Shown piece by piece: positions 1-12,798 of a stretch of 64,000 nt of DNA. A program made the translations under genes and the position numbers. The first letter of the stretch is position 1; the number at the start of each line of letters is the position of its first letter. Source of the DNA: Haliea salexigens DSM 19537 (lineage in GTDB: Bacteria > Pseudomonadota > Gammaproteobacteria > Pseudomonadales > Halieaceae); the NCBI RefSeq assembly GCF_000423125.1, contig NZ_AUHJ01000008.1, forward strand, positions 1 to 64,000. The letters are read 5' to 3'. The notes under the pieces were generated by a model. The model saw only the letters and a program-made list of their open reading frames with translations. It did no database searches and was not told the DNA's origin.

Positions 1-136
1 CACGACGCAGATACTCGCTGACGGTGGGGCGGCCAATGCCACAGGCGGTGGCAATCTGCCGGTTGCTCAGGCCCTGGGCCCATTTGAGGCGCAGCACCTC
101 TTTGATTTTACGCATGGATAACCTCTTCGCTGGCAT
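1..136 (-). CDS. istA: IS21-family transposase IstA, N-terminal fragment at window edge
   Basis: The frame starts at an ATG whose complement is at 134-136 and runs off the left edge after 45 codons. It begins MPAKRLSMRKIKEVLRLKW and continues with a helix-turn-helix segment (LSNRQIATACGIGRPTVSEY). This is the usual DNA-binding N-terminus of IstA, the IS21-family transposase, which carries an HTH domain followed by a DDE integrase core that would lie outside the window. An RBS-like GGAGGGGAA lies just upstream. The terminal repeats expected at this end of an IS21 element are present at 227-321, which supports the call. Whether istA is intact cannot be judged from 45 codons. Confidence 0.85.
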   Translation of the reverse strand, partial: MPAKRLSMRKIKEVLRLKWAQGLSNRQIATACGIGRPTVSEYLRR

Positions 137-226
137 CTGTTCCCCTCCGTGTGGAAAGGCTCAGAGTACCGGTTAGTTATCCCGCGTCGGGGCGCTCCGT
201 TGGGTGACCTCAGACTGCCTGCCGGG

Positions 227-321
227 GTGGCAGGCTTCGTCTGGAATCAGTGGCAGCTTTGCTGTGGAATGGGTGGCAGGCTTCGCGTGGAATCAGTGGC
301 AGGCTTGGTCTGGAATACGCA
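227..321 (-). mobile_element. IS21-family terminal repeat array and element end
   Basis: Four near-identical 21-bp units of the form GTGGCAGGCTTNGTCTGGAAT start at 227, 250, 273 and 296, an exact 23-bp period. The array is followed by ACGCA, so read on the minus strand the element would begin TGCGTATTCC. IS21-family elements carry multiple subterminal transposase-binding repeats upstream of istA and begin with TG, so this is most simply the istA-side end of the element, with its boundary near 321. The other end lies outside the window, so the target duplication cannot be checked. Confidence 0.75.
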
Positions 322-322
322 C

Positions 323-1633
323 TCACTCCCCACCCTCAGCGCCTGCGTCAGGCACGGGGGATGGGCTGGACAGGGTGTTGTAGCGTCTGGCTTTCTCGCG
401 CGATTTAAGTTGGGCATAGCGCGTCAGGTCAGCGCCTGACCCCCAACCCGTAGCCCGGTGGTAACTCACCGCGTCCCGGATATATCGCTCGAGCCCCTCA
501 AAGAAATCGGAAATACCCTCTCGAGCCATGTAGGAGGTGATCCCACTCAACCCATGTTTAAACAGAAAGTGATCGTCAGGTACCCGCGCGCGACTAATGC
601 GTGAGAGGTTTTCGCTACGTGGAACGCCCCAATTTGCTTGCACCAGGTGATCCCACAGAGGATGGTTCGGCCAGCGGGTGCGGCTATCGTCAGACGCACT
701 GGGTACGGTTAAACGCAGCCAGTTGTTCGCGCCATAGCGCCACAGGGCCGCAAGGCTTGCGCCGAGGTGCTCTGTAGTTTCCACCCCAAGCTCTTTGAGG
801 ACATTCCGTTTAAACTGAAACTCAAGACGCCAGACCGTCGTCGTGCCGTGCCAGCCAGACGCTTGCCACAGTTCGTGAAGATAGTATTTTTTAGACTTCT
901 GGATCTCCTCGGTCTTGTCGTACAGTCGTGCTGATATATCTCCGCCCAAGCCAAAGGCATATCCCGTGAAGCGCCGGGTTGTATAATAATTGCTTGCCTG
1001 ATTGGCTCGAGTAACCCAGGCATCCAGAGCCAGTGAACCAATGTCTACCTCTGTTGTGAAATCAACGCAGATATCCACACGACTAACGTTTGGGGTGATC
1101 GAGGCTCCACCAAGCTGGCTTACCACACTCGACAGGGCACCTGTTGCCGCAGCCCAACCTGCGCGAGTGATCAGCTCGCTACTGAGTTGCACATAGGCGA
1201 GTGGGAGCCTATGTGCCTTTTCACCGCACACCTGGATATGAAACCAGTTATCCACCAAAACATAGGGGAACCGCCCCTTTCCACGATCCCGCACTTCGAA
1301 GCGATGATCGTCCACCACAAAAACAGCACTCGACGAAACGACCGGGTCAGCTGATTTAGCACGTTCCTTGAGCTCGTCGAAGTGCCTTGCCTGTGCATCT
1401 GACAAACTACCCGGATATGACAGATACAGGCTGTCTATACCCGTGCGGAGGATCTGCGTGGACGGGTTTCGTTGAATGCTGTTTGCAGGTGCTGTGTTAC
1501 TAGGCGGCGCACCTGCCTCGACGGCGGGGAGGTGTGGGTGCGGGGTTGTCTGCGACACTCCCGCCCCCACACACTCTCCCTCATCAGTGGATGGGCTCGA
1601 TACACCTATCGATACTGAGTCTTGTTTAGCCAT
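323..1633 (-). CDS. Putative replication initiation protein (Rep_trans-like)
   Basis: 436 aa, started at an ATG preceded by AAGGAG with good spacing. The first 60 residues are low-complexity (Ser, Thr, Pro, Ala) and probably disordered. The rest resembles Rep_trans-type rolling-circle initiators: an RVDICVDF motif near residues 185-192 (acidic metal-binding type) and, about 45 residues on, a Gly-rich strand leading into RLYDKTEE near 236-243. A motif of this Y-x-K-x-x-E type accompanies the nicking site in the family. Such proteins nick the origin of small plasmids, phages or satellites. The stop codon falls 2 bp from the IS21 end, so the C-terminus is either natural or trimmed by the insertion. 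No other plasmid gene is visible nearby. The family assignment rests on motif recognition only. Confidence 0.55.
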   Translation of the reverse strand: MAKQDSVSIGVSSPSTDEGECVGAGVSQTTPHPHLPAVEAGAPPSNTAPANSIQRNPSTQILRTGIDSLYLSYPGSLSDAQARHFDELKERAKSADPVVSSSAVFVVDDHRFEVRDRGKGRFPYVLVDNWFHIQVCGEKAHRLPLAYVQLSSELITRAGWAAATGALSSVVSQLGGASITPNVSRVDICVDFTTEVDIGSLALDAWVTRANQASNYYTTRRFTGYAFGLGGDISARLYDKTEEIQKSKKYYLHELWQASGWHGTTTVWRLEFQFKRNVLKELGVETTEHLGASLAALWRYGANNWLRLTVPSASDDSRTRWPNHPLWDHLVQANWGVPRSENLSRISRARVPDDHFLFKHGLSGITSYMAREGISDFFEGLERYIRDAVSYHRATGWGSGADLTRYAQLKSREKARRYNTLSSPSPVPDAGAEGGE

Positions 1634-1707: not shown

Positions 1708-1717
1708 GTTTTATGTC
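1708..1717 (-). other. Cassette-end (attC R''-like) motif overlapping a stop codon
   Basis: On the minus strand this reads GACATAAAAC and includes the TAA stop of the 256-aa gene. It is a 9/10 match to the reverse complement of GTTATATGTC, the core-like motif that opens the same putative cassette at 2633-2642. In integron cassettes the motif at the end of the gene is complementary to the motif at its start. No partner core (GTTRRRY) follows before the rep gene, so the attC here would be truncated. Confidence 0.4.
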
Positions 1718-2481
1718 GCGCGATCAGATTGCCAACGCTGGATAAGGCGCTTGAGACTCCTGGAGGCATCCCCTTCGACATCATCGGGATAAAGCTTCAG
1801 TTCCTGACAAAATAGCTCATAGGCGCGCTTTTCTGTCAGGGAAGCGAGGCAATTCTCTTGTTCCAATACATAAAGACATACTCGCAATGGCGCGTAGGGT
1901 TTCATTTTCTTGGTGGGAGCCCCTTGCCGAAGCCGTTTGCTGACTTTCTGGAAGAATTCCTCATCACCCTGGTACTCCGCCAAAGCCATTCGATCAGCAA
2001 AAGGAGGGCAAGTCAGTATGGTTCGGTCGATAAGTATCGCGTCAAAAAAAGCTCCGTCATTGCCTTTTTCAACTTCCTTGGTCAACTCCTCCAAGGATTT
2101 ACTGTAGAAGCACATGGATCGAAGGTTACCCCTTAGGGCCATCGCAATACCCAGAATATATTTGGCATTTTCTGGATCGACTTCTGGCTCAAATCCCTTG
2201 AGTTGACTCAGGATCGCGACGTGAGGATCTGAAGTTTGAGCAACCTCAGCAAATTTGGATTCCAGACTAAGTAATTTGAGCTGCCAGGCCACCAGATCCA
2301 GGAAGGGAACCTTGTAGAAGGTAGCCCAGAAAAAGGGCGGGGTTAAGTGCTCAGCAAACCCACCTGGTAGCGAGGTCATGAACCCCCTTAGTTCAGCCAA
2401 GTCTGACTCAACCGATCGAAGTTGCTGCGTGAGCGCCAGTAGATCAGCGGCGGAGTAGCGACCAAACTCCTTACTAACCAT
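1711..2481 (-). CDS. Hypothetical protein of the cassette region
   Basis: 256 aa, not recognised. It is predicted soluble: no signal peptide and no membrane segment. The N-terminal 35 residues (SAADLLALTQQLRSVESDL) look helical, possibly a coiled coil, followed by a mixed region with hydrophobic aromatic patches (PPFFWATFYKVPFLDLVAW) and a charged, Lys/Arg-rich C-terminal part. It starts at an ATG followed by GTTAGTAAGGAG. It lies in what looks like the last of the minus-strand gene cassettes: a core-like motif sits about 155 bp upstream at 2636-2642 and a complementary motif overlaps its stop codon. Its GC content is lower than that of the chromosomal genes to the right, consistent with transfer. 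No function can be assigned. Confidence 0.6.
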   Translation of the reverse strand: MVSKEFGRYSAADLLALTQQLRSVESDLAELRGFMTSLPGGFAEHLTPPFFWATFYKVPFLDLVAWQLKLLSLESKFAEVAQTSDPHVAILSQLKGFEPEVDPENAKYILGIAMALRGNLRSMCFYSKSLEELTKEVEKGNDGAFFDAILIDRTILTCPPFADRMALAEYQGDEEFFQKVSKRLRQGAPTKKMKPYAPLRVCLYVLEQENCLASLTEKRAYELFCQELKLYPDDVEGDASRSLKRLIQRWQSDRAT

Positions 2482-2635: not shown

Positions 2636-2734
2636 ATATAACACCTGAGCTCAACTGCGTTCGAGGCGATGCCTGCTTTTGCGAAAGTAAAAGCGCGCAG
2701 CCCGTCAAACGTCGCGTGCAACGCCTTATTAGGC
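2636..2734 (-). other. attC-like recombination site (putative integron cassette)
   Basis: Minus strand, 99 bp. It starts GCCTAATAAGGCGTTGCACG, with the TAA stop of the 138-aa gene inside the first motif, and ends CGCAGTTGAGCTCAGGTGTTATAT. This fits the attC layout R''-L''...L'-R' with a GTTRRRY-like core (GTTATAT) at 2636-2642. Internal symmetry includes GCGTT (2720-2724) with AACGC (2657-2661) and a central hairpin GCTTTT/AAAAGC. A size of 57-141 bp and a stop codon at the site boundary are typical of gene cassettes. The core is degenerate, so the call depends on the repeated architecture of the region. Confidence 0.6.
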
Positions 2735-3145
2735 ACCTTCCGCACCAATCTGTGGGAGATCTCCAGGTGGGACTCCCACGTCGACGGTGTCAGTACGGAA
2801 TAGGATCGGAACCACTATAGAGTTTGCAAACATGGTCTTTCGCCGGCCCCAGTGAACAGTGTAGATCTTGCCTCCTGGAGAATTTGGCAAGTCATGAGTC
2901 CTCGGCGAGCCGCTTCCGGTGTATAGGAATATCCAGTCCCCGGTATTCACTATCCCATCACCGAACCAGAACAAGTTGTCTTGGACTGGCATAGCAAATC
3001 GTTGCGGCCCTGTAATCCCGACCATCAGTCCGTACCGCCCCATGTCCGTAGGCTGCAGCACATGTATTGGCACATGCTCAGAATTTGGGACCCCCCTGTT
3101 TGCCACCGGATAAAGCTTCAATTCGGCCAGGTCAGAGACAATCAC
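2729..3145 (-). CDS. Hypothetical protein of the cassette region
   Basis: 138 aa, not recognised. It has no signal peptide or membrane helix. Alternating Gly- and aromatic-rich stretches (GDWIFLYTGSG, KIYTVHWGRRK) suggest a compact beta-rich fold with a binding cleft, but this is inference from composition. Its start codon overlaps the end of the upstream membrane protein by 4 bp (ATGA), so the two are translationally coupled and probably work together. Its TAA stop forms part of the attC-like site at 2636-2734, which places it as the last gene of a two-gene cassette. Confidence 0.6.
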   Translation of the reverse strand: MIVSDLAELKLYPVANRGVPNSEHVPIHVLQPTDMGRYGLMVGITGPQRFAMPVQDNLFWFGDGIVNTGDWIFLYTGSGSPRTHDLPNSPGGKIYTVHWGRRKTMFANSIVVPILFRTDTVDVGVPPGDLPQIGAEGA

Positions 3146-3651
3146 CTGTCACCTCCCTTAGGCACTGAAAGCCAGCTCATTAGGACGAGAACAGCTCCTA
3201 TCACTCCAGTTGCCACCCCAACAAGCTCAGCGTTGTCCGCACGTGAAAGTTGAACACCGCCTCCCAGAAGTATAGTGCCCACAGCAATACCAACATTTTT
3301 CAGGTGCCGCGTCGATTGGAATGCGGAAATTCGCTCATTCAGGATCGCTGAGTTTATCCTCTCATTGGCAAGGTCGTCTCTTAGCGATTCTCTATCTGTT
3401 CGCAGTAATGCAAGTTCTTGCTTCGTCTGATCCAACTCAACTGCCATCTGGGATGTGATCCCAGCGACAAGGGTCGAGGCAACTTCTCCGCCAAAGGCGC
3501 GCGAACGCGATGCCGCGAGGCCGGTAATCGATTTAGCCATCGGAGCGGTGAGCGGTTGGGCTGCAACCAGTTCACTGCCACCATCGGAATTGACCTGAGT
3601 TCCATCGGAACCCGAGTCCTTTGGTTCTGGAATTTCAGTTTGGTCAGTCAC
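3142..3651 (-). CDS. Coiled-coil membrane protein with two C-terminal TM helices
   Basis: 169 aa from a GTG at 3651, chosen because GGAGAGG precedes it at proper spacing. The same frame is open back to an ATG at 3834, but that one lacks a convincing RBS. The N-terminal 40 residues are acidic and disordered. A Leu/Glu/Arg-rich segment (ELDQTKQELALLRTDRESL) forms a probable coiled coil, followed by two short hydrophobic helices (VGIAVGTILLGGGVQL and VGVATGVIGAVLVLMSWL) and a basic tail. It is likely an inner-membrane protein with a cytoplasmic coiled coil. The stop overlaps the start of the downstream 138-aa gene. Small two-TM proteins paired with a soluble partner are common in defence and toxin modules, but no motif here proves such a role. 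Confidence 0.5.
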   Translation of the reverse strand: MTDQTEIPEPKDSGSDGTQVNSDGGSELVAAQPLTAPMAKSITGLAASRSRAFGGEVASTLVAGITSQMAVELDQTKQELALLRTDRESLRDDLANERINSAILNERISAFQSTRHLKNVGIAVGTILLGGGVQLSRADNAELVGVATGVIGAVLVLMSWLSVPKGGDR

Positions 3652-4003
3652 ATACCTCTCCAAAGTGCCAAAGGCCTTGCGTAACGGCGGTGAAACGGTG
3701 CAACGGTTTTGCCGTCCGGCCACACTAGAACCGCATTCCCACTTCTTGTTAAGAGGCTCAACAAACCAAGCCAACAATGGAAATTTTTTAGGGCCGCCGC
3801 TGAAACGATCAATGGCGCAGTAAACCTGAACCATAACTGATGTAACTCAGCAAGTACCGCTGACAGCATTGGAAAATGTACGGCGTGTAAATTGTCGCCG
3901 ATCGCCATGGTGAAAAGCGACCAAATTGATCTAGATAGCGATCATGTATCCTTTGCAAGATTTCCCGATCTGTTGGTGGTCTAGGCACGATCCCCCCTTG
4001 GCC
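3652..4003. other. Leader region of the two-gene cassette, no convincing gene
   Basis: About 350 bp between the attC-like site at 4004-4090 and the preferred GTG start at 3651. Two minus-strand frames are open over part of it: one continuous with the membrane protein from 3834, the other an 86-codon frame starting at 3908. Neither has a good RBS or a recognisable product. It may hold the cassette's own promoter or a decayed small gene. Confidence 0.4.
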
Positions 4004-4090
4004 TCTTAACGCCTACATTCGGGCCGGCGAAGCGCGCAGCACTTTGGCGTCCAAGCAGCCACGGGCTGCGACAACATGTACTTATTATGC
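4004..4090 (-). other. attC-like recombination site (putative integron cassette)
   Basis: Minus strand, 87 bp. It starts GCATAATAAGTACATG immediately after the TGA stop of the 99-aa gene and ends AATGTAGGCGTTAAGA. The opening motif GCATAAT complements GTTATGC (4421-4427), the core at the start of this cassette, as cassette architecture requires. TACAT (4076-4080) pairs with ATGTA (4014-4018), and a GCAGCC/GGCTGC hairpin lies between. The terminal core GTTAAGA opens the next cassette. Confidence 0.6.
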
Positions 4091-4091
4091 G

Positions 4092-4391
4092 TCATTGGAG
4101 CATTTGCTCAATGAGCTTGATCAGGGTTGAAAAGCCCTCCGATGAGAGCCGCCCCGAGAACGCCTGATACAAGGCTTCGATAAAGGCTGGACCTTCCTTA
4201 ATTGGCGCTCCGAGGTCATCAAACCGCTCAGTGATCCAGTCAGCTATCTGAATCTGCTCGTACTCTGAAAGCTTGTTCGACAACTCAACTCTCTCTATCA
4301 CAGCAGCAGGTGTAACTAGCACTGTAGCGGGATAAGTCTTGGCAACTATCGACGCTGGTTGTGGCTGGATATTTCTCGGTTCCGTGCCCAT
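4092..4391 (-). CDS. Small hypothetical cassette protein
   Basis: 99 aa from the ATG at 4391, chosen because GGAGAGCGAT precedes it; an upstream in-frame ATG at 4448 would read through the cassette core. The protein is not recognised. The first 35 residues are Pro/Ala/Thr-rich (QPQPASIVAKTYPATVLVTP). The rest is probably alpha-helical and acidic (SEYEQIQIADWITERFDDL, then STLIKLIEQMLQ at the end). It has no signal peptide or membrane helix. It is alone in its putative cassette, with GTTATGC 30 bp upstream and an attC-like site directly after the stop. It follows the HEPN gene, so a role as its partner is possible but unsupported by sequence. Confidence 0.6.
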   Translation of the reverse strand: MGTEPRNIQPQPASIVAKTYPATVLVTPAAVIERVELSNKLSEYEQIQIADWITERFDDLGAPIKEGPAFIEALYQAFSGRLSSEGFSTLIKLIEQMLQ

Positions 4392-4420
4392 ATCGCTCTC
4401 CGGTGAATGGAATTGGAGGC

Positions 4421-4444
4421 GCATAACGCCTGAGTTAGAAGGCC
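4421..4444 (-). other. Cassette boundary: R''-like GGCCTTCTAAC followed by core GTTATGC
   Basis: On the minus strand the junction reads GGCCTTCTAAC, then TCAGGC, then GTTATGC. The first 11 bp are the perfect reverse complement of GTTAGAAGGCC at 5267-5277, the motif that opens the HEPN cassette. The following GTTATGC opens the next cassette. The usual attC stem region between the two motifs is almost absent (about 6 bp), so this site looks internally deleted and probably no longer recombines. Confidence 0.5.
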
Positions 4445-4449
4445 GCACG

Positions 4450-5259
4450 CTAGCCGCCCAATTTTGAAAAGCGGTGGCCTGGGACTTTCAAACGCTTTCT
4501 TGCACCCTTGTCTACAGCCAAAACCGAGAGCGTGGCCACCTTGGCAAATGCCTCAACATCTCCGATCCAAAGAGCTTTCAATTCACCACAATCGGTTTGC
4601 TTTGCACCAGTCCGCGAGATGTATCGCTGATTGATTACGCAGCGATTGTGAACCGAGATATTCCGGGCCTCTATTGCCTCAATGACTTTTTGACGCCCCT
4701 TATCGTCTACAAGCACGAGACTAAACCTATTTGAAAAGAATTCCTCAAGGCTACTGAATGACGAATAAGTTAGGCTTTCAACCTTACGCTCAGCAACTGT
4801 CTGCACAAGATCTTGAATGCTGTCATGCTTCAAGACCGTTTCCAAATCAATCTTGTCCGATGAACGCAATGTCTCCGGCCGAGAGACAAATATCTCTCTC
4901 AGCAGAGACGACAAGTAGTTCAGGTAGTTCTCGACGTGCCTGACTAAAACAACCTCCATAAAGAATTGACGATTCTCCCGTAGGTCGTCAATCGTGCTTC
5001 GGCGCTCCCTCCAATCTCGCTCCATCTGGGCCTGCTTCTCCAGATCATCTTCAACTGAAAGCAGGGCACTGTGGGCGCTCTCAGACACCTTTTCAATGTG
5101 GCCCGCCATTCCAATAACGAAATAAAGGAAACGATTGATTTGGCGGAATGAAGCTAAATACTCGTTGCAAGAGACCGTTCCGGTTGCTGGTAGACGAACG
5201 CCAAGATACGGTGAACGAGATGACGCTGCTTGCGGCTTGGGGTTTGATTTGGCATTCAT
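4450..5259 (-). CDS. HEPN-domain protein, probable ribonuclease/toxin
   Basis: 269 aa, ATG at 5259 with AAGG eight bases upstream. The body is strongly helical. Residues 70-110 are charged and coiled-coil-like, and the C-terminal half ends in AIEARNISVHNRCVINQRYI. R199 and H204 there form an R-x4-H motif with Asn after the Arg, the catalytic signature of HEPN RNases used in toxin-antitoxin, abortive-infection and CRISPR effectors. Short segments such as VRHVENYLNYLSSLLREIF resemble the MAE_28990/RiboL-PSP-type HEPN groups, though the exact subgroup is uncertain. It sits in the first putative cassette of the array, 12 bp behind a core-like motif. No antitoxin is recognised in the same cassette. 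RNase activity is inferred from the motif. Confidence 0.65.
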   Translation of the reverse strand: MNAKSNPKPQAASSRSPYLGVRLPATGTVSCNEYLASFRQINRFLYFVIGMAGHIEKVSESAHSALLSVEDDLEKQAQMERDWRERRSTIDDLRENRQFFMEVVLVRHVENYLNYLSSLLREIFVSRPETLRSSDKIDLETVLKHDSIQDLVQTVAERKVESLTYSSFSSLEEFFSNRFSLVLVDDKGRQKVIEAIEARNISVHNRCVINQRYISRTGAKQTDCGELKALWIGDVEAFAKVATLSVLAVDKGARKRLKVPGHRFSKLGG

Positions 5260-5266
5260 GTTGATC

Positions 5267-5277
5267 GGCCTTCTAAC
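5267..5277 (-). other. Cassette core motif GTTAGAAGGCC opening the HEPN cassette
   Basis: On the minus strand this reads GTTAGAAGGCC, fitting the GTTRRRY integron core (GTTAGAA deviates only in the last base). It is exactly repeated in inverted form 820 bp downstream at 4434-4444, behind the stop codon of the HEPN gene. Matching inverted 7-11 bp motifs at cassette start and end are diagnostic of gene cassettes. No attI-like element or intI gene is visible upstream. Confidence 0.5.
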
Positions 5278-5697
5278 AGCGGATTAACAAGACCGGACCG
5301 AATAACCTCATTCCGGTTCACTCGGCTACCGGAGCCGAAGAAAAGAATATTTTTATCATGAAATTAGTATGTTAGCTACTCGCACTTCAAATCCATCCGA
5401 AATAACCGGACGTCATTTAAAACTATGACTCACCCATTTTAGGAAACAGCGACTTTGGGAGATCAACTGCCCTTAGCGACAGCGCAAGTAGAATGGCGGC
5501 TTAGGTGCGGACTCAAACTAACAATTGTGCGGGCAGCTGCTAGATCATTAGATCTAGGGATTGAGCACAGACTGTGGCCACAATTGTGACCACACAAAAT
5601 CGCACCATCAAATATTCAGTACCATTACGTCACATTAGAATTGGGGGCAAACGTCGTAACTGGCTGATTAAATAGAGTATTTAGTTTGGCCAGCCAA
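5278..5697. other. AT-richer noncoding end of the island
   Basis: About 420 bp without a gene, clearly lower in GC than the chromosome to the right. It holds hairpin-forming segments near 5296-5340 (including CGGCT...AGCCG), the palindromes listed at 5521-5594, and an inverted repeat TTTGGC-CA-GCCAAA at 5685-5698 abutting the tRNA-Phe remnant. It probably contains the integrase arm-binding part of the attachment site and the promoter of the HEPN cassette. No promoter could be fixed with confidence. Confidence 0.5.
5521..5594. repeat. Cluster of palindromes and a direct repeat near the attachment site
   Basis: CTAGATC-ATTA-GATCTAG (5540-5557) is a perfect 7-bp inverted repeat. TGTGGCCACAA/TTGTGACCACA (5573-5594) is a 22-bp palindrome with one mismatch pair. 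ACAATTGTG occurs twice, at 5521-5529 and 5580-5588, exactly 59 bp apart. Their position 100-180 bp inside the island boundary fits binding sites for an integrase, excisionase or regulator, but no partner protein is visible. Confidence 0.5.
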
Positions 5698-5743
5698 ATT
5701 GAAAATCCCCGTGTCGGCAGTTCGATTCTGTCTCCGGGCACCA
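5698..5743 (+). other. tRNA-Phe 3' fragment: attachment site at island boundary
   Basis: These 46 bases run from the anticodon loop (ATTGAAAATCCCC, containing anticodon GAA) through a complete T-arm (GGCAG-TTCGATT-CTGTC) to the acceptor strand TCCGGGCA plus CCA. They match the 3' part of bacterial tRNA-Phe, such as the E. coli gene, apart from the T-stem. The sequence just upstream does not supply the D-arm or 5' acceptor strand, so this is not a functional tRNA gene. It is the partial copy left where an element integrates into the 3' half of a tRNA gene, and it marks the right end of the island. Confidence 0.85.
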
Positions 5744-6149
5744 TTTTACCCCCTTATGCTTATATCGTTACGGCAACCTCTCAGCCTCGCTCTTGGAGCG
5801 CTGAATCGAATCTAGACGAAAGTTCCCTGCGGTCTCTATGCTGCTCCTTGTTACCCAGTTCATACGAGTAGTCGCGAGCGGTAGGGTACGAAAACTGCGT
5901 CGGTTACCTGCCCCCTGCATACCATTCCCAAAACCGCGGACAAACTGTGAAATATCAGGCAATGTCTCGGCGTTCGCTGATGCCGCCAGACGCGATTATG
6001 AACCAGGTACGACGATCTGTCTGGCTGTCACGGGAAACGAACGATCCGGAAAATTGCTTTCTTTGGATTTGCTGATACTGCTCCGGAATGGGTTTGGCAT
6101 TCCCACGAAAACATGGATCGAAAGAAAATGGGGCCAGCGAGATTAACTG
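5744..6149. other. Chromosomal stretch next to the island, no convincing gene
   Basis: About 400 bp between the tRNA-Phe remnant and the sulfotransferase stop. A 102-codon plus-strand frame (5838-6146) ends in a stretch resembling real protein (LLSLDLLILLRNGFGIPTK) but has no RBS and matches nothing recognised. It could be decayed remnant DNA left by earlier insertions at the same tRNA site. No terminator or RNA gene is visible. Confidence 0.4.
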
Positions 6150-6797
6150 CTAACCCTTATAGCCGATCACAGCCGGGAAGCCATTGTCCATAATCGCCTT
6201 GATGATTCCCTGCACGGCCTCTGTATCGTTGATGTTCGGAAACGGTTCCTGCGGCACGGGCATTTCCAGGAACTCGCAGAGTGGCTCCCAGCCATCCGCC
6301 ACCTCGAAGACCAGCAACCGCTCGGGGTCGATGGTTGCCCGCACCTCGGCAACATGTTCGTTAAAGCGCCTGATTAGGTGCTTACGGTCGTGCATGCGAC
6401 CATCAAAGTAGTCATTGATTGTTGCTTTCGTGTACGCCCCTGCTTCGGTGTCCGGCAGGAACTCGATCCACTCTTTACCGAATATGGTGTTCTGGACCGA
6501 AATAAACCACTTCTCCGGATCGCGTACGGTAAGTACAACTCTGGCATCCGGGTAATGGTTGGCAAGGGCGGCGTAGCTGGTACACGCCGGGAAATCGACC
6601 GTCGCGGTAAAGCCCTCGAAAATCCTGTCCCAGTCCGGCGTGCCGGTCCCTACCTGTTCCCACAGCTTCCAGTGTTCAGGCCCTTTGGGAAAACATTCCA
6701 CCATGTGATAGCAGGGGTAGCCCAGGTGCTCCAGTGCCGCCTTCAGGGACATGGTACCCGTGCGGCCGAAACCCGCCCCGATCACTTCTAATGTCAT
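6150..6797 (-). CDS. Sulfotransferase family protein
   Basis: 215 aa, ATG preceded by GAGG at 7 bp. The N-terminus MTLEVIGAGFGRTGTMSLK contains the phosphosulfate-binding loop (GFGRTGTMSLKAAL) of PAPS-dependent sulfotransferases in the Sulfotransfer_4-like group. A second typical element is the strand and loop VVLTVRDPEKWFISV near residues 85-100, which binds the 3'-phosphate. Length is normal for this family; there is no signal peptide, so it is cytoplasmic. It would transfer sulfate from PAPS to a small molecule or lipid; the acceptor is unknown. It lies downstream of tpm and chaC in the same orientation, with a 40-bp gap, and may be co-transcribed with them. Confidence 0.85.
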   Translation of the reverse strand: MTLEVIGAGFGRTGTMSLKAALEHLGYPCYHMVECFPKGPEHWKLWEQVGTGTPDWDRIFEGFTATVDFPACTSYAALANHYPDARVVLTVRDPEKWFISVQNTIFGKEWIEFLPDTEAGAYTKATINDYFDGRMHDRKHLIRRFNEHVAEVRATIDPERLLVFEVADGWEPLCEFLEMPVPQEPFPNINDTEAVQGIIKAIMDNGFPAVIGYKG

Positions 6798-8185: not shown

Positions 8186-8644
8186 ATGAAACCGCACCAC
8201 CACGTTACCCGCGAACCGTTCGCCGTACCCAGCGGCCGCCAAAGGCTGTTCGTCCGCTACCTGATCTCCATTCTCATCGACCTGGTGGTATTGAACCTGT
8301 GTGCAGAGTACTGGCAGCACGTACAGATATCGTCTTTCAGCATCACGCTGGCCGCCGCATTGCTGCTGCAGCTACTGTTGCAGGGCACGCTGGTGGTAGA
8401 ACACCGCATCGCCGGATGGTTTACAGGCCGCAGTGGCTTTGGCTGGCAATTCCTGCGCTTCTTCAGCGCGTGGGTGGTACTGTTCCTGTCAAAGTTCGTC
8501 ATGCTCTGGGCAATTGACATGGCCTTCGGCGACGCGCTTGTATTCAGCGGCCCTTTGCACGGCGTGGTGGCCTTCCTCGCCGTCATTGTCGCCATGGTGG
8601 CCGCAGAAGAGCTGCTTGATCAGTTGGTACGCCGGCTCGCTTGA
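8186..8644 (+). CDS. Conserved hypothetical inner-membrane protein
   Basis: 152 aa from the ATG at 8186. Four hydrophobic stretches are predicted as membrane helices: YLISILIDLVVLNLC, SITLAAALLLQLLLQGTLVV, FFSAWVVLFLSKFVMLWAI and GVVAFLAVIVAMVAAEELL. The N-terminus is basic and cytoplasmic. No catalytic motif or family is recognised. It is divergent from chaC, with the two 5' ends overlapping if longer starts are used, so the shared region 8020-8186 must contain both promoters. Downstream it is convergent with the LLM oxidoreductase, and CAGCGG-cttca-CCGCTG (8656-8672) could form a weak shared terminator hairpin. Confidence 0.7.
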   Translation: MKPHHHVTREPFAVPSGRQRLFVRYLISILIDLVVLNLCAEYWQHVQISSFSITLAAALLLQLLLQGTLVVEHRIAGWFTGRSGFGWQFLRFFSAWVVLFLSKFVMLWAIDMAFGDALVFSGPLHGVVAFLAVIVAMVAAEELLDQLVRRLA

Positions 8645-8708
8645 GCGAGCACCTGCAGCGGCTTCACCGCTGTATCGCTGCCGCCCCGAGGCAAGAGCGC
8701 TCGATACG

Positions 8709-9722
8709 CTAGGCGGGCATACCCCAGCGTGGCTTCACGCCGTTGCGCCGCAGATGCGGCAGCACTTGCTCTTCGAACAACCGCAGCATTTTCCAACCCT
8801 GCTCGGGATCAATGCCCCCGAAGAGAGGCGTCAGGTACAGCGAACTGTGGTCACCCAACTCGCGCGCCATGGTCACAACGTCCTCCGGGCGCAGCACCTT
8901 GTAGGCGCCACTTTCACGCACCGACTCAGCGGTCATGCGACCGGCGTAGGGGCCCTGGGGCGTGCCGTAGGCATCGGCCGTCCAGCGTGAATAGGAATCC
9001 AGCACATGCAGGATGTGCGGCGCGATCCATTGCCAGTCAACCTCCGGGTCTTCAGACACCCAGAGGAACGTGGGCCCCTGGCGTGGATAAGGACCCGGGT
9101 CCGGTTTACCCAGGCGCAGGCAGGCGTCGCGGTAGGGTTGCCAAACCTTGGGCGGAAACAGCGGCACGAGAAAACCATCGGCAATTTCGGCGGCTATGCG
9201 CGCCACCTTGGGCGCCATGCCACCGAGCAGGATCGGCACCGGTTTTTCCGGCACTGGCGACACCAGGCAGGGGCGCCCCTCGTAGTTGAAGGGCTCGCCG
9301 GTCCAGGCCTTTTTCAGTAGCCGCGCGGTGTTGCAGGTCACTTCGAAACGGTCTTCGACGCGCTGACCATACATGGCAAATTCGACCGGCCGGTAGCCAA
9401 ACCCCAGGCCGAGCTGCATACGCCCGGCGCTGGCCAGTTGGGCCACCGCCAGATCTTCCGCCAGCCGCACCGGGTCGTACAACGGGGCGAGCAATACCGC
9501 GGTACGCAATGCGACCTGCCGGGTGCGCCCCGCCATCGCCGCGGCCAGGACCAGCGGCGAGGGGTTATAGCCGTCGTCGGCGCAGTGATGCTCGCCAAAA
9601 CCCAGCACATCAAAACCCACCCGATCAGCCCACTCGGCCATATCCAGCGCTGCGGCATAGGCCGCTTCCCTGCCTACACCGAATGCCGGCGTGCGCATAT
9701 CGAAAATCATTACCAGTTCCAT
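8709..9722 (-). CDS. LLM-class flavin-dependent oxidoreductase
   Basis: 337 aa from the ATG at 9722 with CGGAG 8 bp upstream. The fold signatures of the bacterial luciferase-like family are clear: an N-terminal MELVMIFDMRTP strand, GFGEHHCADDGYNPSPLVLAA near residues 43-62, LYDPVRLAEDLAVAQLASAGRMQLGLGFGY near 82-112, and VPILLGGMAPKVARIAA near 170. These enzymes use reduced FMN or F420 to oxidise small substrates with or without oxygen; the substrate cannot be read from sequence. It is cytosolic. Given the steroid-degradation genes 1 kb away, a role in steroid or aliphatic catabolism is possible but unproven. Confidence 0.85.
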   Translation of the reverse strand: MELVMIFDMRTPAFGVGREAAYAAALDMAEWADRVGFDVLGFGEHHCADDGYNPSPLVLAAAMAGRTRQVALRTAVLLAPLYDPVRLAEDLAVAQLASAGRMQLGLGFGYRPVEFAMYGQRVEDRFEVTCNTARLLKKAWTGEPFNYEGRPCLVSPVPEKPVPILLGGMAPKVARIAAEIADGFLVPLFPPKVWQPYRDACLRLGKPDPGPYPRQGPTFLWVSEDPEVDWQWIAPHILHVLDSYSRWTADAYGTPQGPYAGRMTAESVRESGAYKVLRPEDVVTMARELGDHSSLYLTPLFGGIDPEQGWKMLRLFEEQVLPHLRRNGVKPRWGMPA

Positions 9723-10298: not shown

Positions 10299-10475
10299 CT
10301 GCTCAGTATAGATCAGTTGGCAGATCAGGGCGCGCTGCTGACCTGCCCCGGTTCTCTTGACATGGATCAAGCTCCCCGCTTTTCACCCCCGGTTATACCG
10401 CAGATGAGGTATGAGCGACTTGCCCCGGGAGGAGGATAGTCGGTATCAAAGATGACCCGGACTCGGAGAATAACC

Positions 10476-11663
10476 ATGACCGCACAACAAATGAACGACA
10501 TCGACCGCCTCTACGCCAGCGCCCGCAAAATGGTGCCTGTCCTGCGTGAGCGCCAGACAGAAGCTGCCAGCCTGGGCCACCTGCCCGAAGCAACCGTGCG
10601 CGAAATGCAGGAAGCCGGGTTCTTCCGCATCATGCAGCCCGCCCGTTTCGGCGGCTACGAAATGGAGCCGGAAGTGTTTTTTCGTGTGCAGATGACGCTG
10701 GCTGAGGGCTGCATGTCCACGGCCTGGGTACTGGGCGTGGTGGCGATCCACAACTGGCAGCTGGCGCTGTTCGACCAGCGCGCCCAGCAGGACGTCTGGG
10801 GCGAAGATACCAGCGTACTGATCTCCTCGTCCTACATGCCGGTCGGCAAGGTGACCCGCGTCGACGGTGGCTACACGTTGAGCGGCCACTGGGGCTTTTC
10901 CTCTGGCTCCAAGCACTGCGGCTGGGCCTTCCTCGGCGCCATGATTCCCGCCGAGAAAGAGGGCGATGCACCCGACTACCGTACGTTCCTGGTACCGCGC
11001 AGCGACTACGACATTGTCGACAACTGGGATGTGAGCGGCCTGGAAGGTACCGGCAGCCACGATATCGTGGTGAAGGACGCCTTCGTACCCGAGTACCGCA
11101 CGCACCGCTCCATTCACGGCTTCGAGTGCAACAGCCCGGGCAACGCCGTGAACACGCATCCGATTTTCCGTCTGCCCTTCGGCCAGATTTTTGTGCGCGC
11201 CGTGTGCAGTTCCGCCATCGGAGCCCTGCGCGGTGTCACCGACAGCTACGTGAAAGTGAATCGCGAACGGGTCGGCCTGAACGATGGCAACAAGATCGCC
11301 ACCGATCCCGATGCGCAGATGGCCCTGGCCAATGCCATCGCCACGGTGGATGAATGCGAAACCATCATGTTCCGCAATTTCGACACGATGCTGGATGCCG
11401 CGCGCGAAGGGCGCTCGCTGCCCATGGAGGAACGTATCAAGATGCGTTTCGATGCCTCGCGCGTCGGCGCCAAATGCGCGGATGCCATCAACGCCATGTT
11501 CATCGCCTGCGGCGCGCAGGGTATCCATCGCGGCCACCCCTTGAATCGGGCGTGGCTGGATATCAACGCGGGGCGCACCCATGTGGCCAACAACCCGTTC
11601 AAGTTCGGCCGCAACCTCGGCGGGAACCTGATGGGCCAGCCCAACGCCGACTTCTTCCTCTGA
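10476..11663 (+). CDS. HsaA-like flavin-dependent monooxygenase (acyl-CoA dehydrogenase fold)
   Basis: 395 aa from the ATG at 10476, which has GGAG 8 bp upstream; an in-frame ATG at 10452 lacks one. The protein has the acyl-CoA dehydrogenase fold but resembles two-component oxygenases such as HsaA and the HPAH C2 component. Typical segments are VDGGYTLSGHWGFSSGSKHCGWAFLGA near residues 130-160 and a C-terminal GAQGIHRGHPLNRAWLDINAG. HsaA hydroxylates the secosteroid ring in steroid catabolism using FMNH2 from a separate reductase. It is followed 43 bp later by a KshA-like gene in the same direction, which supports a steroid substrate. No reductase partner is visible here. A conventional acyl-CoA dehydrogenase is less likely. 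Confidence 0.75.
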   Translation: MTAQQMNDIDRLYASARKMVPVLRERQTEAASLGHLPEATVREMQEAGFFRIMQPARFGGYEMEPEVFFRVQMTLAEGCMSTAWVLGVVAIHNWQLALFDQRAQQDVWGEDTSVLISSSYMPVGKVTRVDGGYTLSGHWGFSSGSKHCGWAFLGAMIPAEKEGDAPDYRTFLVPRSDYDIVDNWDVSGLEGTGSHDIVVKDAFVPEYRTHRSIHGFECNSPGNAVNTHPIFRLPFGQIFVRAVCSSAIGALRGVTDSYVKVNRERVGLNDGNKIATDPDAQMALANAIATVDECETIMFRNFDTMLDAAREGRSLPMEERIKMRFDASRVGAKCADAINAMFIACGAQGIHRGHPLNRAWLDINAGRTHVANNPFKFGRNLGGNLMGQPNADFFL

Positions 11664-11706
11664 TATCAGAAACCATAACGGGCAGCACACTGCAGCGGAG
11701 ATACCC

Positions 11707-12798
11707 ATGACTGTTCAACAGAAAATCGAACCCTATGTAATCAAGGCCGAACCCCGCCCCGAGCGCTACGCACGCGGCTGGTATGTCATTGGCAACGCGG
11801 CCAGTGTCACCACCGCGCCACGCATGCTGGAAGTGTTCGGCACGAAACTGGTCGCCTACCGCGGCGAAGAGGACGGTGCCGTGCACATACTCGACGCCTA
11901 CTGCCCGCACATGGGCGGCGACCTGAGTGGCGGCAAGGTGTGTGGCAACTCCGTGGTGTGCCCCTTCCATCTGTGGAGCTGGGGCGCTGACGGGGTCTGT
12001 GACGACATCCCCTACGCGAAGAAAATTCCGGAAAAAGCGGTCATCAAATCCTGGCCGGTGCTGGAACGCAACGGTCTGGTACTCGTGTGGCAGGATCCCG
12101 AAAACAACGCCCCCATCCCCGGCCAGGAACCCGCCGAAATGGCAGACTGGTATTCCGGTGACTGGACTGACTGGGAAATGCGCGCCATTCCCATTGAAAC
12201 CCTGGGCCGGGAACTGGTCGACAACATGGCGGACATGGCGCACTTCGGCCCCATTCACTACTCCGCCGTGAAATCATTCCGCAACACCATGGAAGGGCAC
12301 AAATTTGTGCAGTATATGGTCGGCGGCCACCAGCTCCTCACCGAGGGCGATGGCGGGCTGATCACCAGCGTGGCCACCTATGAAGGCCCCGCCTACATGA
12401 CCACCACAATGACCGGCAGCATGGACGGTCACCCGATGACGGTGCACCTGCTGGTCAGCCATGTACCCGTTGATATGGAGAACTTCATCATCAACTTCGG
12501 TGTGATGATGCGCAAGGACCCGAGCATGAGCCCCGAGGAAAACCAGAAGATGCTGGATGAGTACACGGAAAAGAATATCGAGTCGTTCCACCAGGACGTG
12601 GCGATCTGGAACAACAAATGCATCATCGACAACCCGCTGATGTGTGACGGCGATGGTCCCATCAACCTGGTGCGCAAGTGGTACAGCCAGTTCATGACGA
12701 ATGTGGCGGACATTCGGCCCGATCAGGTCAAGGCGCGTGAACACGTCACCATGGAAGGGCCCACGGTCGAAGAGGTGCTGGCCGCTCAGCAACAGTAA
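11707..12798 (+). CDS. kshA: KshA-like 3-ketosteroid 9-alpha-hydroxylase, Rieske oxygenase
   Basis: 363 aa, ATG with GGAG upstream. The Rieske [2Fe-2S] domain has C66-x-H68 (YCPHMGGDLSGG) and C85-x2-H88 (VCPFHLWSW). The mononuclear iron ligands are D176-x2-H179-x4-H184 (VDNMADMAHFGPIHY), exactly the spacing of terminal oxygenases. The sequence around ARGWYVIG and HMGGDLSGGKV, together with GADGVCDDIPYAKKIP, matches KshA. KshA, with the reductase KshB, hydroxylates 3-ketosteroids at C9 and opens ring B with KstD. No KshB or KstD lies in the window. A rho-independent terminator follows directly. The substrate could be a related terpenoid. Confidence 0.75.
   Translation: MTVQQKIEPYVIKAEPRPERYARGWYVIGNAASVTTAPRMLEVFGTKLVAYRGEEDGAVHILDAYCPHMGGDLSGGKVCGNSVVCPFHLWSWGADGVCDDIPYAKKIPEKAVIKSWPVLERNGLVLVWQDPENNAPIPGQEPAEMADWYSGDWTDWEMRAIPIETLGRELVDNMADMAHFGPIHYSAVKSFRNTMEGHKFVQYMVGGHQLLTEGDGGLITSVATYEGPAYMTTTMTGSMDGHPMTVHLLVSHVPVDMENFIINFGVMMRKDPSMSPEENQKMLDEYTEKNIESFHQDVAIWNNKCIIDNPLMCDGDGPINLVRKWYSQFMTNVADIRPDQVKAREHVTMEGPTVEEVLAAQQQ

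Follow-up and report, generated by a model that had tools for sequence, protein, structure and literature searches.

The window analysed in this study comprises the first 64,000 nucleotides of contig NZ_AUHJ01000008.1 of Haliea salexigens DSM 19537, and carries at positions 5698–5743 a 46-base fragment of a tRNA-Phe gene, i.e. its 3′ half from the anticodon loop to CCA. It is very probable that this fragment represents the right end (attR) of a small element which carries its own tyrosine integrase and inserted into the 3′ half of tRNA-Phe, and that a later insertion of IS21 broke the assembly. A preliminary description, made from the sequence of the window, had interpreted the fragment as the right boundary of an integrative island; the observation was confirmed and the interpretation is supported, with refinements concerning the small size of the island, the displaced host end and the dating of the boundary.

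The tRNA-Phe fragment and the two ends of the island

Analysis with ARAGORN revealed no complete tRNA in the window, and the bases located 5′ of the fragment showed no match to the 5′ half of the intact tRNA-Phe gene, in agreement with the lack of a 5′ half reported previously. When the source genome (G000) was searched with a 121-bp query around the fragment, the only match besides the fragment itself was C13:1688–1737(−) (98% over 50 bp, E=3.6e-18), located on a contig (C13, locus L011) other than that of the window (C8, numbered from its first base). This match lies in an intact tRNA-Phe(GAA) gene (C13:1692–1767(−)), the single intact tRNA-Phe found in this genome. The longest block of identity between the two is 47 bp long (window 5698–5744 = C13:1737–1691(−)) and, judging from the sequences, cannot be ascribed to chance. 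Since both 47-bp copies are identical, the crossover point cannot be placed within them. The earlier statement that the fragment dates the boundary exactly holds in part: the repeat places the boundary within 47 bp, but it gives no date. In the standard model of such insertions, the island supplies the 3′ half of the working tRNA, and the original host end is displaced and persists as the fragment (PMC4383910). Most likely, this also applies here: the rebuilt, intact gene would owe its 3′ half to the island, and the fragment would be the 3′ end displaced from the host gene.

The intact tRNA-Phe gene on C13 is accompanied by genes encoding a tyrosine recombinase (int) and an excisionase-like protein (xis) (Table 1), and the contig ends within IS21 (istB C-terminus, E=2.4e-24), the istA side of which opens the window. 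Three istA-side and three istB-side ends of IS21 were detected in the genome. The sequences flanking the insertion sequence (IS) on the two contigs (C13 ...CCCCTCACTC and C8 CTCACTCCCC...) contain a 7-bp target duplication that was seen in no other IS21 pairing; a second pair of ends (C17/C39) has its own duplication, GCTTGTG. The same island, free of the IS, was identified in Halieaceae bacterium UBA5044 (L054), where the sequence ...GCATGCCCCCTCACTCCCCACCC... corresponds to both flanks merged exactly at the 7 bp. The duplication unique to this pair, together with the uninterrupted merged sequence in L054, argues that C13 and C8 are neighbours. We infer across IS21 that a single replicon carries both ends, spaced as expected for an island. 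If the IS is removed and its target duplication is counted a single time, the island measures 6,809 bp, both 47-bp cores included, and has the order tRNA-Phe – int – xis – (IS21) – rep – p256 – cargo – attR. A large island was rejected, as attL is separated from attR by only ~6.8 kb plus one IS. The intact tRNA-Phe with its neighbouring integrase gene, which had been predicted to the left of the window as the start of the island, is thus present on C13 and adjoins the left end of the window via IS21, and the 47-base scar in the raw sequence could be traced to a complete island despite the broken assembly. The third pair of IS21 ends (C40, C4) has no common target duplication, which may mean that a partner is missing or that IS copies have undergone rearrangement with one another.

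The 5,859-bp island of L054 likewise runs from tRNA-Phe through int, xis and rep to p256, and is closed by the same 47-bp copy (5317–5363). The cores of the two islands are 96.4% (over 2,321 bp) and 98.6% (over 1,484 bp) identical, compared with 74–76% for the chromosome on both sides, the simplest reading of which is that the core has recently passed from one species to another. The cargo slots (window 2643–5273 and L054 5790–7470) are wholly unlike. Two relatives from the same genus are free of the island. In G005 (L152), which represents the island-free site of L054, a 94% match to the right flank of L054 runs through the 47-bp core and stops there, and the complete tRNA-Phe is present once. 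In G001 (L150), the next gene after tRNA-Phe, at a distance of 126 bp, is the sulfotransferase gene of the right flank of the window. The preliminary description had named the lack of a tRNA-Phe within a plausible distance, or the presence of the fragment in strains without the island, as findings that would contradict it; instead, a tRNA-Phe was found at island distance, and the sites in the relatives are uninterrupted.

Related islands and the proposed attP arm

A scan with the integrase yielded 297 relatives, the best 80 of which were kept and provided the repeat and arm counts given below. At 26 loci among these 80, the island is bounded by a 37–64-bp repeat ending in a tRNA 3′ half, and 12 of the 13 islands with rep are located at tRNA-Phe. 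The arms of the island of the window and of 25 others were compared, starting at attR and moving inward. An IHF-consensus-like site (WATCARNNNNTTR, with no more than one mismatch) starting 25–44 bp inside attR was identified in 24 of the 26 islands, versus 4.5% per shuffled arm. The tandem repeat G.[CT]ACA-N5/6-G.[CT]ACA, starting 103–110 bp inside attR, was present in 18 of the 26 and in none of the shuffled arms; in several islands the int side also bears such a repeat (at L011 1538 in the case described here). An attP arm of the lambda type is laid out as a core, an IHF site and tandem arm sites, and the predicted sites adjacent to attR suggest an arm of this type. In L055 (474–1534), two open reading frames (ORFs; 174 and 152 aa) located near attR resemble pieces of a second tyrosine recombinase, and one of them matches the integrase query (E=4.5e-6).

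Two other explanations of the fragment were weighed. The end on C13 and the end in the window might belong to two separate tRNA-Phe islands, their join at IS21 being coincidental, and the three copies of IS21 do make the join of the contigs a matter of inference; however, this is highly improbable in view of the uniqueness of the 7-bp duplication to the C13/C8 pair, the adjacency of xis and rep in the exactly merged sequence of L054 and the single intact tRNA-Phe. Alternatively, an unrelated rearrangement could have left behind a tRNA-Phe gene that is decayed or duplicated in part, and the fragment would then belong to no island. Such remnants occur (nothing specific points to one here), but this origin can hardly be maintained for a fragment that starts at the anticodon loop, when there is a matching left end, with an integrase and an excisionase, that is joined by the target duplication, when 26 related islands have similar ends, and when the island of L054 and the empty site of G005 contradict it. 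A lone decayed tRNA or a duplication within the window was also rejected, given the undecayed 47-bp identity, the negative result with ARAGORN and the island-free sites of G005 and G001.

Several points weigh against the reading of the fragment as attR of the small element. No single contig reads through the join of C13 and C8. G001 is a different species, in which the gap between tRNA-Phe and the sulfotransferase gene is 126 bp compared with 406 bp in the window, and the empty site of the window is recognized by gene order alone. The IHF and arm sites are sequence matches, and the counts over 26 islands are not fully independent, since some of the islands are close relatives. Excision, integration and replication of the element are predictions from its sequence.

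According to the mechanism that we propose for this element, Int would carry out recombination between attP and the tRNA gene within the 47 identical bp, with the help of the IHF site and the arm repeats located ~30 and ~107 bp inside the end; the 3′ half of the working tRNA-Phe would then stem from the element, and the fragment would represent the host end displaced by it. IS21 inserted later between xis and rep, splitting the assembly. Xis and Int would excise a circle, to be copied by Rep in the rolling-circle manner, and the element, devoid of transfer genes, would spread as a hitch-hiker on a phage or conjugative element, with the cargo slot exchanged between islands.

Rep, cargo and possible modes of transfer

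The 436-aa Rep of the window has no match in Pfam, PF02486 (Rep_trans) included; three of its 14 homologues match PF02486 weakly (best E=0.0036). An AlphaFold model built from the single sequence was unusable (pLDDT 33), whereas that based on a 14-row alignment was usable (pLDDT 78.6). The latter matched structures of rolling-circle initiators, namely 4cij (Foldseek E=3.2e-10, probability 1.00, TM 0.55 on the target) as well as 4cwc and 4cwe, and the modelled protein thus resembles initiators of the Rep_trans type. Tyr238, within the motif RLYDKTxE, is invariant across the 14 homologues and is a candidate catalytic residue. Remote relatives (25–32% identity) are encoded by 1.7-kb plasmids of Mesotoga (E=8e-11; 1,724 bp) and Synechococcus (1,750 bp). 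No Rep match was found in 50,697 phage records, and no relative was confirmed in the viral contigs scanned. A sample of 369 genomes from across the class contained 14 with a Rep homologue (the source genome counted, and two of the homologues weak). The neighbouring gene, p256, accompanies rep in 12 of 13 islands; no known domain was found in its product.

The 13 database islands sharing the integrase and Rep carry differing cargo, some of it anti-phage. The cargo encodes, among others, an AbiLi-like AAA protein accompanied by RloB, a pair of C5 methyltransferases together with an HNH protein, and a KAP NTPase, alongside many unassigned genes. The cargo of the window consists of four genes without assigned function, among which the 269-aa protein is a possible HEPN RNase. 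Its relatives are few: a plasmid gave one remote match, and of 273 other genomes a single one gave weak matches. Related species harbour near-identical cores at one and the same site but with unlike cargo, which provides a defined place in which to seek new anti-phage genes.

Insertion into tRNA genes of this type is well known and ordinary. As in the tRNA-gene islands of Islander (PMC4383910), a tyrosine integrase is accompanied by a regenerated tRNA at one end, a displaced 3′ fragment at the other and an exact repeat; the features by which such islands are recognized (intact tRNA, displaced 3′ fragment, integrase inside, one replicon, here across IS21, and uninterrupted site) were all found, and there is no essential difference, the present island being small and split by IS21. 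The PICMI of Vibrionaceae (PMC10803314) are likewise very small, combine int with an HTH_17/AlpA-type gene and a replication gene, lack capsid genes, and have a large non-coding share and anti-phage cargo; PF12728, matched by Xis, is among the AlpA models applied to them (PMC10803314). However, PICMI have a DUF3987/DUF5906 primase and reside at fis, whereas the island studied here has a Rep_trans-type Rep and targets tRNA-Phe. Assignment to PICMI by definition was rejected, as no Pfam match to this primase was found among the island genes and the target is not fis. The integrative mobilizable elements (IMEs) of Firmicutes with Rep_Trans or MobT (PMC5704250) similarly combine a tyrosine integrase with a Rep_Trans-type protein, and their excised circle presumably replicates; they belong to another phylum, and those of streptococci occupy 3′ ends of protein genes. 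The tmRNA islands I23, I44 and I55 of Pseudomonas, moved by jumbo phages (PMC12595487), also have a tyrosine integrase, alpA, direct repeats and defence cargo, without genes for autonomous transfer, but differ in their target and in their considerably greater length (from under 20 to more than 70 kb). Finally, the Mesotoga and Synechococcus mini-plasmids, which share a remotely related Rep, are free and devoid of an integrase.

No capsid or conjugation gene was found in the island, which is thus probably a hitch-hiker. A phage satellite and a mobilizable element both fit, and the data favour neither. As a minimal PICMI-like satellite, the island would be excised on phage infection and packaged as rolling-circle concatemers in helper capsids. 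This is a tenable, if tentative, reading, consistent with the PICMI-like size and layout (PMC10803314) and with the defence-type cargo of several islands; against it, neither a packaging site nor a helper was identified, the phage records and scanned viral contigs contain no rep homologue, and the primase is absent. It seems rather unlikely that the island is an IME whose Rep doubles as a MobT-like relaxase acting with a co-resident conjugation system (PMC5704250). The predicted Rep_trans fold would agree with such a role, but neither an oriT nor a coupling protein was identified, the two nearest small plasmids with a related Rep have only 1.7 kb, and the passages of PMC5704250 that were consulted list no Rep_Trans IME from Proteobacteria. 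A filamentous prophage (Inoviridae) was rejected, as no match to a Zot-type ATPase or coat protein was obtained in Pfam, PHROGs or NCBIfam, and no rep in the phage records.

These islands may, though we would not yet presume it, constitute a coherent and undescribed family of gammaproteobacterial mini-islands (~4.5–8 kb), in effect integrating rolling-circle plasmids that ride other elements. Its traits would be a lambda-type integrase with fixed attP arm geometry, an HTH_17 Xis, a Rep of rolling-circle type akin to that of cryptic 1.7-kb plasmids, a conserved 256-aa partner, and one swappable cargo slot, often with anti-phage genes. No description of an int-xis-Rep_trans family in Gammaproteobacteria was found in the literature, of which coverage was partial, so that this is weak evidence. 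The family, which may be undescribed, merits a survey of its own.

Features of the island and its surroundings

Table 1. Features of the tRNA-Phe island and its right flank (window positions, unless C13 is indicated).
Feature	Position	Strand	Evidence or remark
Tyrosine recombinase (int), 343 aa	C13 (L011) 563-1594		Beside intact tRNA; PF00589 E=1.3e-30; PHROG integrase E=1e-69
Excisionase-like HTH_17 gene (xis), 109 aa	C13 (L011) 357-686		Next to int; PF12728 E=4e-14; TIGR01764 above cut-off
IS21 istA-side end (IS copy splitting the island between xis and rep)	1..321	-	E=2e-6
IS21 target-site duplication CTCACTC, 7 bp	322..328	+	Counterpart C13:345-351
rep, Rep_trans-type rolling-circle initiator by predicted fold, 436 aa	323..1633	-	Fold, homologues
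p256, core gene kept beside rep	1711..2481	-	Conservation in islands
Cargo, 138-aa protein; start overlaps stop of 230-aa gene	2729..3145	-	ORF; no family match
Cargo, 230-aa protein	3142..3834	-	ORF; weak coiled-coil-type Pfam match below cut-off
Cargo, 118-aa protein	4092..4448	-	ORF; no family match
Cargo, 269-aa protein, R-x4-H motif (RNISVH), possible HEPN RNase	4450..5259	-	ORF; weak PADLOC RTasHEPN match E=2.4e-4
Conserved attP-arm segment	5274..5697	.	87% identity to L054 over 473 bp including att core
Putative integrase arm-type tandem repeat GTCACA-N6-GCCACA	5573..5590	-	Same motif in 18/26 islands
IHF-consensus-like site AATCAGCCAGTTA in attR arm	5657..5669	-	Exact match to WATCARNNNNTTR; sequence match, predicted
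attR, displaced tRNA-Phe 3′ half, 47-bp direct repeat of C13:1737-1691(-)	5698..5744	+	Genome search, alignment
Right-flank host gene, sulfotransferase	6150..6797	-	Adjoins tRNA-Phe in island-free G001

The 406 bp between the fragment and the stop of the sulfotransferase gene (window 5744–6149; ~50% GC) are unrelated in sequence to the 126-bp gap of G001, and may have been left behind by an earlier insertion at this tRNA. In G007 (L151, C1:266500–273500), tRNA-Phe and the sulfotransferase gene are 4.3 kb apart. A second att repeat was not found at this locus and the intervening genes partly match host genes at window 8186–9000, which argues for a rearranged flank and not the same island. Upstream of tRNA-Phe (L011 1827–7977), ~6 kb of genes of the source genome are absent from G005 and G001, which indicates that the locus varies to either side of tRNA-Phe. 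Outside the island, window positions 10452–12798 contain a gene for an HsaA-like monooxygenase (NF045629, E=7.8e-123, 410 bits; cut-off 450), followed by a gene with a weak match to 4-beta-methylsterol monooxygenase (E=6e-10); judging from these matches, a role of this region in steroid or sterol degradation is possible.
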